Assembly: GCA_013151445.1 (NCBI GenBank)
Contig: JAADIG010000106.1
Location: 1-35,096, forward strand
Length of the DNA stretch: 35,096 nt
Source of the DNA: Actinomycetota bacterium
Lineage (GTDB): Bacteria > Actinomycetota > Acidimicrobiia > Spongiisociales > UBA5794
Direction: 5' to 3'
Notes under the pieces: generated by a model
Told to the model about the DNA's origin: nothing
Seen by the model: the letters and a program-made list of their open reading frames with translations, nothing else
The model's database searches: none
Translations under genes and position numbers: made by a program
Shown: positions 4,660 through 10,136 of the stretch, in pieces
How positions within the stretch are numbered: position 1 is the stretch's first letter
Layout of the letters: each line of letters begins with the position of its first letter

Positions 4660-5289
4660 CTAGCGGCGAGCTCGAATATGGAAGAAATGGAAATGCCGAG
4701 TTCGGTTCGCCGTGCCGTACGGGGCGTCGTATTGGCGTTCATCGATGTCGACGTGCGCAAAATCACGCAGGTTCTTCTCGACCCACAAGTGGTCGACAAC
4801 CACGGCACCTTCTTCCGCTACCCAGTCGTCGTGTGTGCCAAATAGCTGCCCTACGAATGCGCCTCCCTCGGTCACCGCCCCTAACGCAGCGCGAACCGAT
4901 TGCTCGAAGTGTTCTCCTGCGAACGGGAGCGAGAACTGTGCATAGACGAGGTCAGCGGGGACAAGCTTGACCTCGTGGAATGCCCCGATCGTGATCTCCA
5001 GGCGCGCTCGGCGCTCCGGGGAAAGTCCCGCGGTGAGGAGTCGTTCGCTTCCCGGTTCCGCATCCACGGCGAGGACTTTCCACCCACGTGCGAGCAGCGC
5101 ACGAGAGTCTGCTCCTCCTCCACATCCCAGATCAATCGCCTGGCGGCCCTTGGCGTCGTTGCCATCAACGTACTCCATGGCCGAATGAAAGTATTCGAGT
5201 GGGCCGCGCCCTGCGGTGGTGGCACCAAAAGTTGTCCACGGCCCATTTGGTGTGATGGTGTCATCGTGGAAGCGGAGTTCGTCACTCAT
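4660..5289 (-). CDS. Class I SAM-dependent methyltransferase
   Basis: 209 residues. SAM-binding motif I is AIDLGCGGGADSRALL at about residues 51-66, followed by the acidic motif VLAVDAEP and the motif IV region (PADLVYAQFSLPF). The N-terminus (TPNGPWTTFGATTAG) and the His-rich end (NRTRHFHFFHIRARR) do not point to a specific substrate. A TAGACT box lies 6 nt upstream of the ATG and there is no SD, so the mRNA is probably leaderless. It diverges from the GNAT gene with 71 bp between the starts. It is near the peptide array but not co-directional with it as an operon, so a tailoring role is speculative. Confidence 0.85.
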   Translation of the reverse strand: MSDELRFHDDTITPNGPWTTFGATTAGRGPLEYFHSAMEYVDGNDAKGRQAIDLGCGGGADSRALLARGWKVLAVDAEPGSERLLTAGLSPERRARLEITIGAFHEVKLVPADLVYAQFSLPFAGEHFEQSVRAALGAVTEGGAFVGQLFGTHDDWVAEEGAVVVDHLWVEKNLRDFAHVDIDERQYDAPYGTANRTRHFHFFHIRARR

Positions 5290-5301: not shown

Positions 5302-5348
5302 CCGACGCCCACAGCGCCTGGGCTACCGGGCGATCCATATTGTGCTCG

Positions 5349-5354
5349 TATACT
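5349..5354 (+). promoter_or_regulatory. -10 box of leaderless GNAT promoter
   Basis: TATACT with exactly 6 nt before the ATG at 5361 and no SD. This favours that ATG over the one at 5340, which lies upstream of the box and would not be on a transcript started here. No convincing -35 is seen. Confidence 0.6.
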
Positions 5355-5360
5355 TTGCCG

Positions 5361-6299
5361 ATGAGCACTTTCAGTATCGAACGGCTCCGCACCGCTCGCG
5401 AGGTTTTGCCGCTGGTTGAAGGTCGACTACCGGTGTCCATCGATATCGTCGACCGCGTCGGCCGGACTCCGCAGGGGAGCCATTGGAAAGCCCATGCAGT
5501 GCATCGTGCCGGGTCCCTCGTTGGTTTCTTCTTTCAGTATCGGCTCTGTCGAGGAAAGTGGGAGGCAATCCTGCTCCTTGACGAGCCGATAGCCGATGCC
5601 ACCTTTGAGCGCCTCGTCAACCGTGCCCAGGTATGGTCGATTGGTGGACCCGGCGACCATGTCGCGACGTTTCTGGAACGCCTCCCACGACTCACCCGAC
5701 TGACAAAGCTCGAGATGTTTCACGAACGCACCCCACCGGATTACTGGACAGCCATGCCGGGTGCCGTGTCTCTGGGGGTCGAGCATTCCGAGCGCCTCGT
5801 CAAGTTCTTCAGTCACCACGAGCGGTTCGGAATTCCGACTATGGCCGGCATCCGCGAGTTCGTGGGGCTTGCTCTGCAGCGTGGCCCCGCCGTCGTGGTT
5901 GAAGAGGATGGCGAAATCGTGGGTGGTGTGCTGCTCGGGGCCGCGACGCCTGATTGGATCTCACTTGATGGACTGACGGTGCGTCCGGATCGTCGCGGGG
6001 CCGGGTTGTCAACGGTCCTGCTGTCAGGTGGCGCTCGCATCTGGTCGAACGGTGCGGTAGGGATGTGTGGTGTCCGAGCCACGACCAACCCCGGGGGGTA
6101 CGGACTTCACGCGGGTCAGACCGATTGGTTCGCCGCGAATCTGCGTCCACCGAAGAGGTTCCGTGGACATCAGCGCCTCCGGGTCTTGGCACTCAAGTTC
6201 CAAGAGCGGAGCAAGCCATGGAACACGACGTACATCCGTCCCGAGTACCGCGGCGAGGATGGGCAGCTACGGAATCGTCCCGATGATGAACCGGGATAA
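5361..6299 (+). CDS. GNAT family N-acetyltransferase
   Basis: 312 residues from the ATG at 5361. The C-terminal half has the GNAT core: an acidic strand (VVEEDGEIVGGVLLGA), then LTVRPDRRGAGLSTVLLSGG, which matches the R/Q-x-x-G-x-G/A acetyl-CoA loop. The N-terminal half (about residues 1-140) is probably a divergent GNAT-like or substrate domain (SHWKAHAVHRAGSLVGFFFQ). The substrate is unknown. It converges on the peptide array, and a hairpin starting 10 nt after its stop separates the two. Confidence 0.8.
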   Translation: MSTFSIERLRTAREVLPLVEGRLPVSIDIVDRVGRTPQGSHWKAHAVHRAGSLVGFFFQYRLCRGKWEAILLLDEPIADATFERLVNRAQVWSIGGPGDHVATFLERLPRLTRLTKLEMFHERTPPDYWTAMPGAVSLGVEHSERLVKFFSHHERFGIPTMAGIREFVGLALQRGPAVVVEEDGEIVGGVLLGAATPDWISLDGLTVRPDRRGAGLSTVLLSGGARIWSNGAVGMCGVRATTNPGGYGLHAGQTDWFAANLRPPKRFRGHQRLRVLALKFQERSKPWNTTYIRPEYRGEDGQLRNRPDDEPG

Positions 6300-6353: not shown

Positions 6354-6440
6354 TTACTTCTCGTCGTAGATCATCGAGCCGTCGTACTTGAGTGCTCCGA
6401 CGAGCTGAGTCTTGACCACTGCTGGTGCTGTGTAGATCAT
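6354..6440 (-). CDS. RiPP-type precursor peptide 1 (cysteine-free)
   Basis: 28 residues, the last cassette of the array. The leader starts MIYTAPAVVKTQLVGAL, matching the array consensus at Tyr3, Pro6, Lys10, Thr11, Leu13 and GAL. The core has YDGSMIYDEK: aromatic-D-G-S-M but no cysteine, unlike peptides 5-10. The SD GGGAGGT is about 4 nt from the ATG. It has its own candidate promoter (6486-6514) and its own hairpin terminator. The gene is real by homology to nine siblings. The RiPP interpretation is inferred from leader conservation, core variation and the nearby RRE protein. Confidence 0.8.
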   Translation of the reverse strand: MIYTAPAVVKTQLVGALKYDGSMIYDEK

Positions 6441-6485
6441 GCTGACCTCCCTACAAAGTAGATGAATGCATTCCTACGCCCTGTG

Positions 6486-6514
6486 ATACTACGCCACTTT
6501 GCGTGGTTGACCAA
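6486..6514 (-). promoter_or_regulatory. Candidate promoter of peptide 1
   Basis: Minus strand: TTGGTC (6509-6514), 17-nt spacer, TAGTAT (6486-6491). Predicted 5' UTR is about 40 nt, carrying the GGGAGGT SD. The surrounding DNA is AT-richer than the genes. Confidence 0.45.
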
Positions 6515-6604
6515 GGTTCTAACTAGGCGCTTCCAAACGGACTAGATAGGGCGGGTCCCTGTGGAGGGGTCGGGGCAGGAACGAGTTCTACCCGGGAGCG
6601 AGAA

Positions 6605-6631
6605 CGAGGGACGGGTGTTACCCGTCCCTCG
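6605..6631. terminator. Hairpin downstream of peptide 2
   Basis: Perfect 12-bp stem CGAGGGACGGGT / ACCCGTCCCTCG with a 3-nt loop, 24 nt after the stop of peptide 2 in its direction of transcription. Confidence 0.75.
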
Positions 6632-6655
6632 CATCAACTCTACGTATCCGAGCGG

Positions 6656-6754
6656 TTAGCCGGTGAAGACCATGGAGCCCTGATAGCCGTCATCGCTGGA
6701 ATCAAGTGCTCCGTCGAGCGGCGTCTTGGTCGCTTCTGGTGACGTGTACTGCAT
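6656..6754 (-). CDS. RiPP-type precursor peptide 2 (cysteine-free)
   Basis: 32 residues. The leader MQYTSPEATKTPLDGAL keeps Tyr3, Pro6, Lys10, Thr11, Leu13 and GAL. The linker is acidic and Ser-rich, and the core is YQGSMVFTG, again aromatic-x-G-S-M with no cysteine. The SD GGAGAGG is 6 nt upstream of the ATG. Upstream, at 6780-6850, is an AT-rich stretch containing a TATAGT box (6798-6803 on the minus strand) and an inverted repeat. It ends in its own hairpin, so it looks monocistronic. Confidence 0.8.
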   Translation of the reverse strand: MQYTSPEATKTPLDGALDSSDDGYQGSMVFTG

Positions 6755-6804
6755 TCGTAACCTCTCCGTTTGTCCATCGCTATTACTACTGAGAGTCACT
6801 ATAG

Positions 6805-6830
6805 ACCACTATGAGTATTTTTGTAGTGGT
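6805..6830. promoter_or_regulatory. Inverted repeat upstream of peptide 2, possible operator
   Basis: ACCACTA (6805-6811) and TAGTGGT (6824-6830) form a perfect 7-bp inverted repeat whose centres are 19 bp apart, about two helical turns. CACTAT also occurs twice 10 bp apart (6797 and 6807). It overlaps the likely promoter of peptide 2. A related palindrome occurs at 9075-9091. Confidence 0.3.
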
Positions 6831-6853
6831 GATATTTTGCAGTGCTAAAAGGA

Positions 6854-6881
6854 CGAGACCCCGTCCGAAGACGGGGTCTCG
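6854..6881 (-). terminator. Intrinsic terminator downstream of peptide 3
   Basis: Perfect 12-bp stem CGAGACCCCGTC / GACGGGGTCTCG with CGAA loop. The minus strand continues TCCTTTTAGC, giving a T-run. It lies 25 nt after the stop of peptide 3. Confidence 0.85.
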
Positions 6882-6906
6882 TTACCCTCATTACAAGGGG
6901 ATTGCC

Positions 6907-6987
6907 TTATCCGCAGTCCAAACTGCACACGTATAGCAAATCTCCGGTGAGAAGACTGCGGGCCATTACTGGCTTGGCGTAGATCAT
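6907..6987 (-). CDS. RiPP-type precursor peptide 3 (divergent)
   Basis: 26 residues, the shortest member. The N-terminus MIYAKPVMARSLLTGDL keeps Tyr3, Pro6, the basic residue at 10, Leu13 and Gly15. The core is only LYVCSLDCG, with two cysteines (CxxxC) and without the usual G-S motif. The SD GGAAGGAGGTG 3-4 nt from the ATG is the strongest in the array. A 205-nt untranslated stretch separates it from peptide 4. It ends in a clear intrinsic terminator. Confidence 0.7.
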   Translation of the reverse strand: MIYAKPVMARSLLTGDLLYVCSLDCG

Positions 6988-7192
6988 CGCACCTCCTTCC
7001 CATCCACGGACCCCCCGGACTGGGGACCCTGAGCGGCCCCGATTGGCCGTTGGACAAGGGTACACCGCGCGCCGTGCCTGCGCCAGGAAATTTCCGGATG
7101 CCGCTGCGGGGCAACGGGTTGTTGGATCGGGGGCGAGGAGGAAGTGCCTTGGGCACCATTCCGAGTAACGACGGTCGCGAACGTATCGATGT

Positions 7193-7300
7193 CTACCGCT
7201 CGGCTGGGGAATAGCACATCAATCCATCGATGGCGCAGTCACGGTCCTTGAGAACGCCGGCCGACGCGGTCTTGACAAACATTGGTGTCATTTCGTGCAT
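7193..7300 (-). CDS. RiPP-type precursor peptide 4 (divergent)
   Basis: 35 residues. The leader MHEMTPMFVKTASAGVL keeps T-P at 5-6, K-T at 10-11, and Gly15-x-Leu17, but has Glu at the Tyr3 position. The core holds CAIDGLMC, two cysteines around an I-D-G-L motif that parallels W-D-G-S of the siblings, with SPAER as tail. The SD GGAGGT lies 4 nt from the ATG. A 16-bp hairpin ends only 20 nt upstream, so there is no room for a separate promoter in between. Confidence 0.7.
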   Translation of the reverse strand: MHEMTPMFVKTASAGVLKDRDCAIDGLMCYSPAER

Positions 7301-7320
7301 GGATACCTCCACCCGGTATT

Positions 7321-7366
7321 GGTTGAAGGTCTGGTGAGCGGGTTGCTGCCCACCAGACCTTCAACC
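7321..7366. terminator. Long hairpin between peptides 5 and 4
   Basis: Perfect 16-bp stem GGTTGAAGGTCTGGTG (7321-7336) / CACCAGACCTTCAACC (7351-7366) with a 14-nt loop. It lies 14 nt after the stop of peptide 5 and 20 nt before the ATG of peptide 4. There is no T-run, so it could act as an attenuator, processing site or mRNA stabiliser rather than a full terminator. Confidence 0.75.
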
Positions 7367-7380
7367 GCACATGCTGCGTG

Positions 7381-7476
7381 CTAGCCGCAGTACATGATTG
7401 AACCGTCGTACTCGCACTTCTCTCCGAGTGCTCCCACCAAGGTTGTCTTGGCGAGTTTTGGTGTGGTGTAGCTCAT
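7381..7476 (-). CDS. RiPP-type precursor peptide 5
   Basis: 31 residues. Leader MSYTTPKLAKTTLVGAL; core with CEYDGSIMYCG, two cysteines spaced C-x8-C around Y-D-G-S-I. The SD GGAGGAGGAT precedes the ATG. It follows peptide 6 by 64 nt and probably shares its transcript, since no strong hairpin separates them. A 16-bp hairpin lies after its stop. Confidence 0.85.
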   Translation of the reverse strand: MSYTTPKLAKTTLVGALGEKCEYDGSIMYCG

Positions 7477-7540
7477 CTAATCCTCCTCCGGATGTGTTTG
7501 GTGTTGCAACGGTCTGACCTCGATCTGGCGAGATCTCGAC

Positions 7541-7636
7541 CTAGTTACATGCGTACATTGAGCCGCCCCAGCATTTCTCTTCGTCGAGTGCTCCGGACAG
7601 TGCGGTCTTGGTGACCGCTGGTGTCGTGTAATTCAT
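7541..7636 (-). CDS. RiPP-type precursor peptide 6
   Basis: 31 residues. Leader MNYTTPAVTKTALSGAL is identical to peptide 8 except at residue 2. Core CWGGSMYACN has cysteines spaced C-x7-C around W-G-G-S-M. The SD GAGAGGAG precedes the ATG at 7636. A much longer in-frame extension upstream (to 8095) exists but has no family resemblance and crosses the hairpin and cassette 7, so the short start is chosen. Confidence 0.85.
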   Translation of the reverse strand: MNYTTPAVTKTALSGALDEEKCWGGSMYACN

Positions 7637-7936
7637 GTACTTCTCCTCTCTGTTGCTTCGGGTGCCGGTTAGGCACACTGAGTCATTAACCACAGCCGTG
7701 TGTTGAGCCGCTGTGTCAATCAGGAATCGATGCTCCGGCGAGGGAGTCCTGGCGACGGCGGTGTCGCACCGTCCAAAGGGGCCTCCGGCATTGATCCGAA
7801 TCGTGCTGCCAGCGGGTCCGGTGTTCGTCACTGCGGACCTCGGTCGGCCGGTCATTGCTGTCCCGACTCGGAGAGTTCCCCTAACGGATGTCCTGATCGG
7901 CATCGTGGCTTCACGGCTTTGCTTTGGTGATCGTGC
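7637..7936. other. 300 bp without a convincing gene, inside the peptide array
   Basis: This is the largest gap between cassettes. On the minus strand it holds the SD of peptide 6 and a TTGACA hexamer without a well-spaced -10. On the plus strand one frame reads RIVLPAGPVFVTADLG and then VPLTDVLIGIVASRL, vaguely like a SAF-domain fragment. There is no SD and no partner gene, so this may be chance or a relic. Confidence 0.4.
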
Positions 7937-7974
7937 GTCAACTTGTCTGGGGTCGGAGCCCCGCAAAAGTTGAC
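7937..7974. terminator. Hairpin at the end of cassette 7
   Basis: Outer stem GTCAACTT (7937-7944) / AAGTTGAC (7967-7974) and inner GGGG/CCCC. It begins at the stop codon of the startless cassette 7 on the minus strand. Confidence 0.65.
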
Positions 7975-8075
7975 TACTCCCCGTCGGTGCAGGTGTAGAG
8001 CGAACCCTCCCAACAGTGTCCCCTGAGTGCTCCCTCCAAGGCTGTCTTGGCGAGTGCCGGTGTCGTGCGTGTCCG
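7974..8075 (-). pseudogene. Startless precursor cassette 7
   Basis: 33 codons homologous to the neighbouring precursors: TRTTPALAKTALEGAL aligns with the leader consensus, and the core HCWEGSLYTCTDGE has C-x7-C around W-E-G-S-L. The codon where the siblings have ATG is CGG, the Tyr3 codon is CGC (Arg), and no SD is present. The frame is open upstream, but only into the hairpin after peptide 8. It is most simply a precursor whose 5' end was lost or replaced. A rare start (ATT about 21 nt upstream) cannot be excluded. Confidence 0.65.
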
Positions 8076-8098
8076 GTCGGCTCTTTTCGTTTCAATCG

Positions 8099-8143
8099 TT
8101 CCTGGTCCCGGGAGGTGGAAGATCCGCCACCCAGGACCAGGAA
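8099..8143. terminator. Hairpin downstream of peptide 8
   Basis: Outer 10-bp stem TTCCTGGTCC (8099-8108) / GGACCAGGAA (8134-8143) and inner GGTGG/CCACC (8114-8118 / 8127-8131). It starts 9 nt after the stop of peptide 8. Confidence 0.75.
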
Positions 8144-8152
8144 TCAACGCTG

Positions 8153-8257
8153 CTACGAGTCGAGGACGCAGTAGTAGATTGAGCCGTCCCAGCATTGCTC
8201 TTCGCCGAGTGCTCCTGACAGTGCGGTCTTGGTGACCGCTGGTGTCGTGTACTTCAT
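8153..8257 (-). CDS. RiPP-type precursor peptide 8
   Basis: 34 residues. Leader MKYTTPAVTKTALSGAL, the best representative of the consensus. Core CWDGSIYYCVLDS has C-x7-C around W-D-G-S-I. The SD GAGAGGAGGTA lies about 3 nt from the ATG at 8257. Peptide 9 ends 50 nt upstream with no hairpin between, so the two probably form a bicistron. In-frame upstream ATGs exist, but only the 8257 start has an SD and gives the conserved N-terminus. Confidence 0.88.
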   Translation of the reverse strand: MKYTTPAVTKTALSGALGEEQCWDGSIYYCVLDS

Positions 8258-8307
8258 GTATACCTCCTCTCGGATGTGTCCGGGTTCGAAAATCCAATGC
8301 TCAATGG

Positions 8308-8403
8308 TTATTTGTCGCAGAGATACATTGAGCCGTCCCAACATTTATCTCTGAGCGCTCCCGCGAGCACTGTTCTGGTGACCGCTGGTGTTGTGTACTT
8401 CAT
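8308..8403 (-). CDS. RiPP-type precursor peptide 9
   Basis: 31 residues. Leader MKYTTPAVTRTVLAGAL; core CWDGSMYLCDK with C-x7-C around W-D-G-S-M. The SD GAGAGGAGG is 6 nt from the ATG at 8403. A strong hairpin ends 35 nt upstream of the start, leaving little room for its own promoter. Expression therefore needs read-through from cassette 10 or a promoter overlapping the hairpin. Confidence 0.88.
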   Translation of the reverse strand: MKYTTPAVTRTVLAGALRDKCWDGSMYLCDK

Positions 8404-8438
8404 GTGTTCCTCCTCTCGATGTATCCAGGTTGTGATTC

Positions 8439-8473
8439 CCACAGGGTGTTCCGCGAGTCGGAACCCCCTGTGG
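8439..8473. terminator. Hairpin between peptides 10 and 9
   Basis: CCACAGGG (8439-8446) / CCCTGTGG (8466-8473) plus inner GTTCC/GGAAC (8448-8452 / 8460-8464), with a 7-nt loop. No clear T-run follows on the minus strand. Confidence 0.75.
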
Positions 8474-8575
8474 TTCGTTGAGTCCTCAGGTTGTGCCATT
8501 GGAACGTGTTCGTCGATGTCTTGTTACCCCGGTCGGGTCGTCCGAGCATTCCCGCACACGATCTGCGGCCTGGTC

Positions 8576-8689
8576 CTACAGGTCTCTACAGCCCAGTAAG
8601 ACTGAACCGTCAAACTTGCAATGTTCGCGACTTATGTCGAGTTCGCCCGCCAGGTTTGTCCTGATGAGCACAGGTGTCGTGTAGTTCAT
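8576..8689 (-). CDS. RiPP-type precursor peptide 10
   Basis: 37 residues, the first cassette in transcription order and the longest. Leader MNYTTPVLIRTNLAGEL keeps YTTP, Arg10, Thr11, Leu13 and Gly15. Core CKFDGSVLLGCRDL has two cysteines spaced C-x9-C around F-D-G-S-V. The SD GGGAGGAGG is 5 nt from the ATG. A hairpin at 8439-8473 follows, and a terminator-like hairpin at 8785-8810 lies upstream, so its promoter should be in 8690-8784. Confidence 0.85.
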   Translation of the reverse strand: MNYTTPVLIRTNLAGELDISREHCKFDGSVLLGCRDL

Positions 8690-8784: not shown

Positions 8785-8810
8785 AAGAACGGGCGCGAAC
8801 GCCCGTTCTT
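8785..8810 (-). terminator. Intrinsic terminator upstream of the array
   Basis: Perfect 11-bp stem AAGAACGGGCG (8785-8795) / CGCCCGTTCTT (8800-8810) with CGAA loop. The minus strand continues TGTATTTC. It would insulate the array from upstream minus-strand transcription. Confidence 0.75.
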
Positions 8811-9453: not shown

Positions 9454-9876
9454 TTACGACGTCTTCCGAAGGTAACCGAGCACGCGACGGGGAACCCTGC
9501 GAAACCTGGCTGATGCCGTCCCCAACCATCGGCTACGCCATCCGTGTTTTGTTTGTTTGCCGCTTTGGACGTCTGCAACGACACGACCAATGAGGCGATC
9601 CGACGCGACGGGGCGGTCGCGCCACAGCTGACCATCCCCATGGAAACTGTGCATGCCCTCGACGGTGCCACGACACCGATGGACAACGATCGTGGATTCG
9701 TCATTCGTGAACGCCCAGATCTCACCCCATCGGGGCATGTCGGCAGCGATGACCCGAACCTTCGCCGGGGGACGAATCGTGTGACCCATCGAGGATCCAT
9801 CAACCGGGATCCAGATTGCATCTCGCACGAGACGTTTTCGCAGTGCCCCTGCTATCGCCGCCGGTTCGGTGTTCAT
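9454..9876 (-). CDS. S26-type (signal-peptidase-like) serine peptidase
   Basis: 140 residues from an ATG that overlaps the pqqD-like stop in ATGA, so the two are translationally coupled. Motifs follow the S24/S26 order: GSSMGHTIRPP (Ser29-Met30, the nucleophile box), RWGEIWAF (50-56), VVHRCRG with His66, HGDGQLWRDRPV (79-90), and LIGRVV. His in place of the bacterial Lys suggests the Ser-His type, as in SipW and archaeal or ER signal peptidases. No membrane anchor is evident, so it is probably cytosolic. Its pairing with an RRE protein suggests it removes the leader from the nearby precursors; this is an inference. Confidence 0.75.
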   Translation of the reverse strand: MNTEPAAIAGALRKRLVRDAIWIPVDGSSMGHTIRPPAKVRVIAADMPRWGEIWAFTNDESTIVVHRCRGTVEGMHSFHGDGQLWRDRPVASDRLIGRVVADVQSGKQTKHGWRSRWLGTASARFRRVPRRVLGYLRKTS

Positions 9877-10136
9877 GCCTCGACGACGAGACCTTCGGTC
9901 TTGAGTTGCTCGACGAATACCCGTAGATCGGCTGCCCATTGCTCTCGGGTGACACCTTCGAACAAGTCAAACAACTTGCCCTCAAGTGCTTCGATTGCGG
10001 TTGGTTCTTCGATATTCGTCCAGATCAGCGTGGCGACCGGATTGAGGGTCAACAGTTCTTCGTCGGAGTCACCCACGATGACCGCCTGGTCGTCGAACAT
10101 CTCAAATACTATGTCTGGGTTTCGTGCAATCTTCAT
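9873..10136 (-). CDS. PqqD-like RiPP recognition element protein
   Basis: 87 residues, the full size of a stand-alone PqqD domain. It shows the family pattern: NPDIVFEMFDDQAVIV, then ELLTLNPVATLIWTNI (LN at 31-32, Trp39), and a C-terminal helix ending FVEQLKTEGLVV. PqqD-like domains bind RiPP leader peptides as an added beta strand and present them to modifying enzymes or leader peptidases. In lasso systems the recognised leader carries YxxP, a motif also present in the nearby precursors. The S26-type peptidase starts within its stop codon. Confidence 0.88.
   Translation of the reverse strand: MKIARNPDIVFEMFDDQAVIVGDSDEELLTLNPVATLIWTNIEEPTAIEALEGKLFDLFEGVTREQWAADLRVFVEQLKTEGLVVEA

Follow-up and report, generated by a model that had tools for sequence, protein, structure and literature searches.

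What do ten very short ORFs, lined up on one strand of the genome of an uncultured actinobacterium (class Acidimicrobiia), encode? They lie in the window, i.e., the whole stretch of 35,096 nt that we analyzed (contig JAADIG010000106.1 of assembly GCA_013151445.1, 3.07 Mb in 159 contigs, genome G000 hereafter). A preliminary description had taken them for RiPP-like precursors read by a PqqD-like RRE and had pointed to lasso leaders as a lead. The first part of this reading was sustained by the conservation of the array, by synteny, and by relatives with a single precursor; the lasso lead was not. The array is real, conserved, and RiPP-like. We consider it likely that it consists of paralogous precursors of a system related to the Linear Polyphosphorylated Peptides (LPPs), relying on an RRE and a signal-peptidase-type protease, in which one precursor slot has been expanded to ten and no kinase is encoded at the locus.

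All ten ORFs, 26–37 codons long, were found on the minus strand between positions 6354 and 8689, as had been described. Cassette 1 (8576..8689, MNYTTPVLIRTNLAGELDISREHCKFDGSVLLGCRDL), which is syntenic with L028 1856–1960, is followed by cassette 2 (8308..8403, MKYTTPAVTRTVLAGALRDKCWDGSMYLCDK), cassette 3 (8153..8257, MKYTTPAVTKTALSGALGEEQCWDGSIYYCVLDS), and cassette 4 (about 7974..8075, RTRTTPALAKTALEGALRGHCWEGSLYTCTDGE). Then come cassette 5 (7541..7636, MNYTTPAVTKTALSGALDEEKCWGGSMYACN), cassette 6 (7381..7476, MSYTTPKLAKTTLVGALGEKCEYDGSIMYCG), the diverged cassette 7 (7193..7300, MHEMTPMFVKTASAGVLKDRDCAIDGLMCYSPAER), cassette 8 (6907..6987, MIYAKPVMARSLLTGDLLYVCSLDCG), cassette 9 (6656..6754, MQYTSPEATKTPLDGALDSSDDGYQGSMVFTG, orthologous to L029 3469–3567), and cassette 10 (6354..6440, MIYTAPAVVKTQLVGALKYDGSMIYDEK). 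Nine of the ten start with ATG behind a strong Shine-Dalgarno (SD) sequence, and the startless cassette 4 has neither an ATG, GTG, or TTG codon nor an SD, in line with the initial account. A weak nhmmer match (E 0.15) at 7730..7764, on the expected strand and at the expected place, may be the leader relic of a decayed cassette. A terminator-like hairpin (8785..8810, minus strand) separates the array from the RRE and protease genes. An integron cassette array was considered and rejected, as the attC motif (RYYYAAC...GTTRRRY) is unmatched anywhere in the array.

The ten cassettes share a 17-residue N-terminus, YxxPx(V/L)x(K/R)TxLxGAL. The consensus proposed earlier holds, with P6, G15, and L17 invariant and T11 and L13 nearly so, except that the Tyr of YxxP is lost in cassettes 4 and 7. 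A profile built solely from the peptides of two sister species (G001 and G002) recovered nine stretches of the window at 28–66 bits, against 12.5 bits for the best of 40 dinucleotide-shuffled windows. With this profile cassette 7, which has also lost the core Ser, scores 7.4 bits; it reaches 14.2 bits with a fuller profile from which it was excluded, where composition shuffles do not exceed 4.9. Cassette 8 stands apart: its 5.7 bits, with a profile devoid of its own orthologues, fall within the range of shuffles (up to 9.1), and its membership rests on its fit to the leader motif and on its place. Searched with two spacings over 211 kb in six frames, the motif gave 24 matches to cassettes or precursors and one stray. 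The pN/pS ratio of the leader codons is 0.58 over all pairs. No known non-RiPP family, such as the type I toxins that had been put forward as a possible match, was recovered: NCBIfam has no family for the six cassettes tested, and Pfam matched the one cassette tested at chance level only.

The small-ORF profile search suggested in the preliminary description found the leader conserved in both sister species. Syntenic arrays accompanied by homologous RRE and protease genes are present in the two other species of the genus examined, with about 10 and 3 cassettes, respectively. G002 (bacterium BMS3Bbin02, BDTL01000205.1) carries ten intact cassettes and a diverged one spread over two contigs, and G001 carries three. 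Among 99 relatives searched with the peptides, clear matches were restricted to genomes of the genus; one weak match in G089 (E 0.0098) lies within a 362-aa frame and was judged to be due to chance. Of 296 genomes drawn from the class, G000 and G001 were the sole matches and the other 294 have no such array. Nothing was found in viral contigs and plasmids. At the sequence level, the array is confined to one genus. G001 additionally contains, on a 3.2-kb contig with a transposase-like ORF (L031, C77), a variant copy of its array end with two cassettes, which reflects either strain variation or an assembly artefact.

The C-termini had been called hypervariable. This was overstated: most tails share the pattern C-(W or xY)-D-G-S-(I/M)-x-x-C, or at minimum an aromatic-x-G-S-hydrophobic segment. 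The cores hold two Cys or none, never one (P about 1e-5, and 5e-5 with orthologues removed), and in 24 of 25 cores I, M, L, or V comes directly after a Ser (shuffle maximum 16), figures that count paralogues as independent and therefore overstate the number of independent cases, because the peptides share descent. The Cys pairs and the conserved Ser point to a turn that is closed by a bridge and carries a functional Ser.

Two genes lie upstream of the array on its own strand. The first (9873..10136, minus) encodes a discrete PqqD-like RRE (PF05402, E 4e-10), which bears out the earlier mention of such a gene nearby. Its product is 91% and 82% identical to those of the sister species and is the sole PqqD-domain match in G000; G002 likewise has only one. 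A sequence search of the PDB with the RRE returned designed repeat proteins only, which we took as chance. The second gene (9454..9876, minus), whose start overlaps the RRE stop (ATGA), was overlooked in the preliminary description, as was the GNAT gene beyond the array. It encodes a serine protease of the S24/S26 type (LexA/signal peptidase fold), a candidate leader peptidase. The 140-residue protein has no meaningful Pfam match by its own sequence. In an alignment of ten members, including seven relatives from other genera, Ser30, His67, Asp82, and Asp88 (numbered as in the first row of alignment A8) are invariant, and nine of the ten match Peptidase_S24 (E up to 1, best 8.8e-6). The structure predicted from this alignment (pLDDT 84) matches the LexA C-terminal domain and Escherichia coli signal peptidase I at Z 10–11; an earlier model from three close sequences (pLDDT 39) was discarded.

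At the opposite end of the array, a GNAT acetyltransferase is encoded on the plus strand (5340..6299). It is related (E 4e-8 to 5e-10) to the GNATs found beside a precursor in three loci of other class members (L069, L073, and L075), and it is the only certain modification enzyme of the locus. No GNAT was found in G001 or in G002, the latter being 72% complete. The class I SAM methyltransferase adjoining the array (4660..5289, minus) is probably a bystander: it occurs without the array elsewhere in the family and order, and G001 keeps only remnants of it.

Four genomes of the class (G095, G123, G355, and G164) combine homologues of the protease and of the RRE with one short SD-bearing ORF, whose leader reads YESPRVVDREPLVGLL, YQRPQIVSREPLSGLL, YAAPKIESRAEVKGLM, or YSAPKIKTRSAVKGLM. 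The leader layout of these loci (L069, L070, L073, and L075), Y..P.(I/V)..R..(L/V).GL(L/M), matches that of the window and is one residue longer; by profile alone, the L070 and L073 leaders do not exceed shuffles. In L069, L073, and L075 the precursor adjoins the S26 gene, the GNAT gene, or both. The order S26, precursor, GNAT in L073 and L075 corresponds to S26, ten cassettes, GNAT in the window. Nothing argues more strongly than this common order for the array having taken the place of a single precursor, and with a single peptide gene at the equivalent spot in relatives, the locus looks like a one-peptide system grown into a library. Unlike the window, these loci have a single precursor with a Gly-rich or acidic core lacking the Cys pair, and they have a linked HprK-like kinase in all four cases and NTP_transf_5 in three (L069, L073, and L075). 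These three also have a GNAT, as does the window, whereas L070 has neither NTP_transf_5 nor a GNAT close by. Three further loci (L071, L072, and L074) have S26 relatives and no precursor matching the leader motif. In L072 (4832–7078, G132; similarly in G120), NTP_transf_5 and an S26-type protease share a single open frame, a possible natural fusion.

The closest described counterpart is the LPP system of Paenibacillus alginolyticus, lppA-K-B-S-D-N, reported as restricted to Bacillota (PMC13381572); descriptions of signal-peptidase-type leader proteases in RiPP biosynthesis date only from 2026. In this system, LppB, an RRE, binds a leader of the YxxP type (YxxPxVLxHQxIxFETxxS) and hands it to the SipW-like protease LppS, with catalytic S29/H68/D93, and an HprK-like kinase phosphorylates a core Ser (PMC13381572). 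Both systems have a discrete RRE, a YxxPxV leader, a signal-peptidase-like protease with Ser/His/Asp, precursors with a conserved N-terminus and a variable C-terminus, and links to polysaccharide loci; the proteases are likened by fold, by these residues, and by the published description. They differ in host (Acidimicrobiia versus Bacillota) and in precursors, ten of 26–37 aa in the array and one to three of 35–200 aa in LPP loci. The array leader has YxxPx(V/L), the rest of the LPP consensus being unmatched, and it ends in L-x-G-A-L instead of I-x-F-E-T. The locus also lacks the kinase, NTP transferase, and transporter of LPP clusters and has a GNAT. We did not file it as an LPP because it has no local kinase, no NTP transferase, and no FET leader end. 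The array probably works in the LPP manner. The pairing of RRE and protease across Acidimicrobiia with one leader layout would extend the LPP-like kind to another phylum. The array also recalls prochlorosins and other one-enzyme-many-precursor RiPPs, in which numerous paralogous precursors likewise share a leader and, it appears, a single processing machine; prochlorosins, however, are lanthipeptides made by a ProcM-type synthetase (PMC10783134), and the window has nothing comparable.

No HprK-like kinase is encoded in the window. Elsewhere in the genus we found a distant HprK-like match (E 6.6e-7 over the P-loop part; TIGR04352, E 9e-5) in an unlinked polysaccharide locus. The PF07475 search is uninformative on the kinase, because PF07475 misses the L069 kinase too. 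In G000, this locus (contig C87; L102 7955–11804) encodes the HprK-related kinase, a Wzc-like chain-length protein, and NTP_transf_5 (PF14907), whose only occurrence in the genome is there. The same gene set, without an RRE, is present in both sister species (L103–L106), and no second RRE was detected at the C87 locus itself. That the HprK-related and NTP_transf_5 proteins of C87 act on the array peptides would be a guess, and the HprK-like protein of the genus may be unrelated to the array.

We propose that the RRE would bind the YxxPx(V/L) segment of every leader and that the serine protease would cut near L-x-G-A-L, freeing a core of about 9–20 residues. Most cores would then close through their two Cys around the aromatic-x-G-S-hydrophobic turn. 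The core Ser appears to be the likeliest target of a modifying enzyme; an HprK-like kinase from another part of the genome might phosphorylate it, for example, and the GNAT may add an acyl group to the product. Repeated duplication would have filled the single slot beside protease and GNAT with cassettes, some newly born and others decaying, leaving a single processing machine to serve about ten products. Ten substrates, three species, one RRE, and one protease form a natural combinatorial set, in which leader recognition, the cleavage rule, and core tolerance are directly testable. A bolder version, possible in our view and rather doubtful, sees a new Acidimicrobiia RiPP family whose RRE and signal-peptidase-fold protease would act on a library of about ten short peptides, mostly with paired Cys, that is specific to the genus and turns over fast; tailoring enzymes of the polysaccharide locus would be shared in trans, and cassette 8 would at the same time be a conserved structured RNA.

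Alternatively, the peptides might be merely cut and exported, as signals or short toxic peptides, with the disulphide as their sole modification. The paired Cys would fit, and so would the linked genes, an RRE, a protease, and a GNAT in one species only. However, RREs ordinarily serve a modification step, the class relatives carry a kinase and mostly NTP_transf_5 by the equivalent genes, and the peptides lack the membrane-spanning hydrophobic stretch typical of type I toxins. We regard this explanation as unlikely.

Reading each unit as a small regulatory RNA or an attenuator leader, a hairpin-bearing transcript whose ORF is secondary, seems to us very unlikely to be right for the array as a whole, despite strong predicted structure 3′ of most cassettes (mean z −3.3, versus 0.05 in random windows), which makes each cassette look like a self-contained unit. 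Cassette 8 also speaks for such an idea. The surrounding stretch of about 130 nt hardly varies among the three species while the flanks diverge, and its silent differences amount to 0 of 17 and 1 of 17.5. A stem predicted within the ORF shows compensatory double changes, among four sequences only, two of them from one assembly. This block (6885–7010, minus), with its covarying stem, is a possible structured RNA, and cassette 8 may have an additional role at the RNA level. The other cassettes, by contrast, show mostly third-position differences that leave the motif and the SD in place, individual cassettes have no downstream gene to regulate, and the gene order is common with the single-precursor relatives. 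Rfam has no family in the window.

Finally, we hold it highly improbable that these are lasso precursors served by a standard B1/B2/C set whose B2 and C genes lie elsewhere. The leader, with its YxxPx(L/V), and the RRE, PqqD-like and weakly matched by lasso PqqD models, are lasso-like. In the three genomes of the genus, however, no Transglut_core3 (B2) gene exceeds the cut-off, the one weak match having three stops; the spacing from core Gly to Asp/Glu at ring positions 7–9 is not constant, and the gene overlapping the RRE gene encodes a serine-type protease instead. Within the window, no Asn-synthetase-like cyclase was seen. As a separate observation, in another genome of the same order (G064, L027 1477–3082) a PqqD-like gene has a gene resembling B2 and one for an HprK-like kinase as neighbors, probably forming a lasso-type or related cluster.
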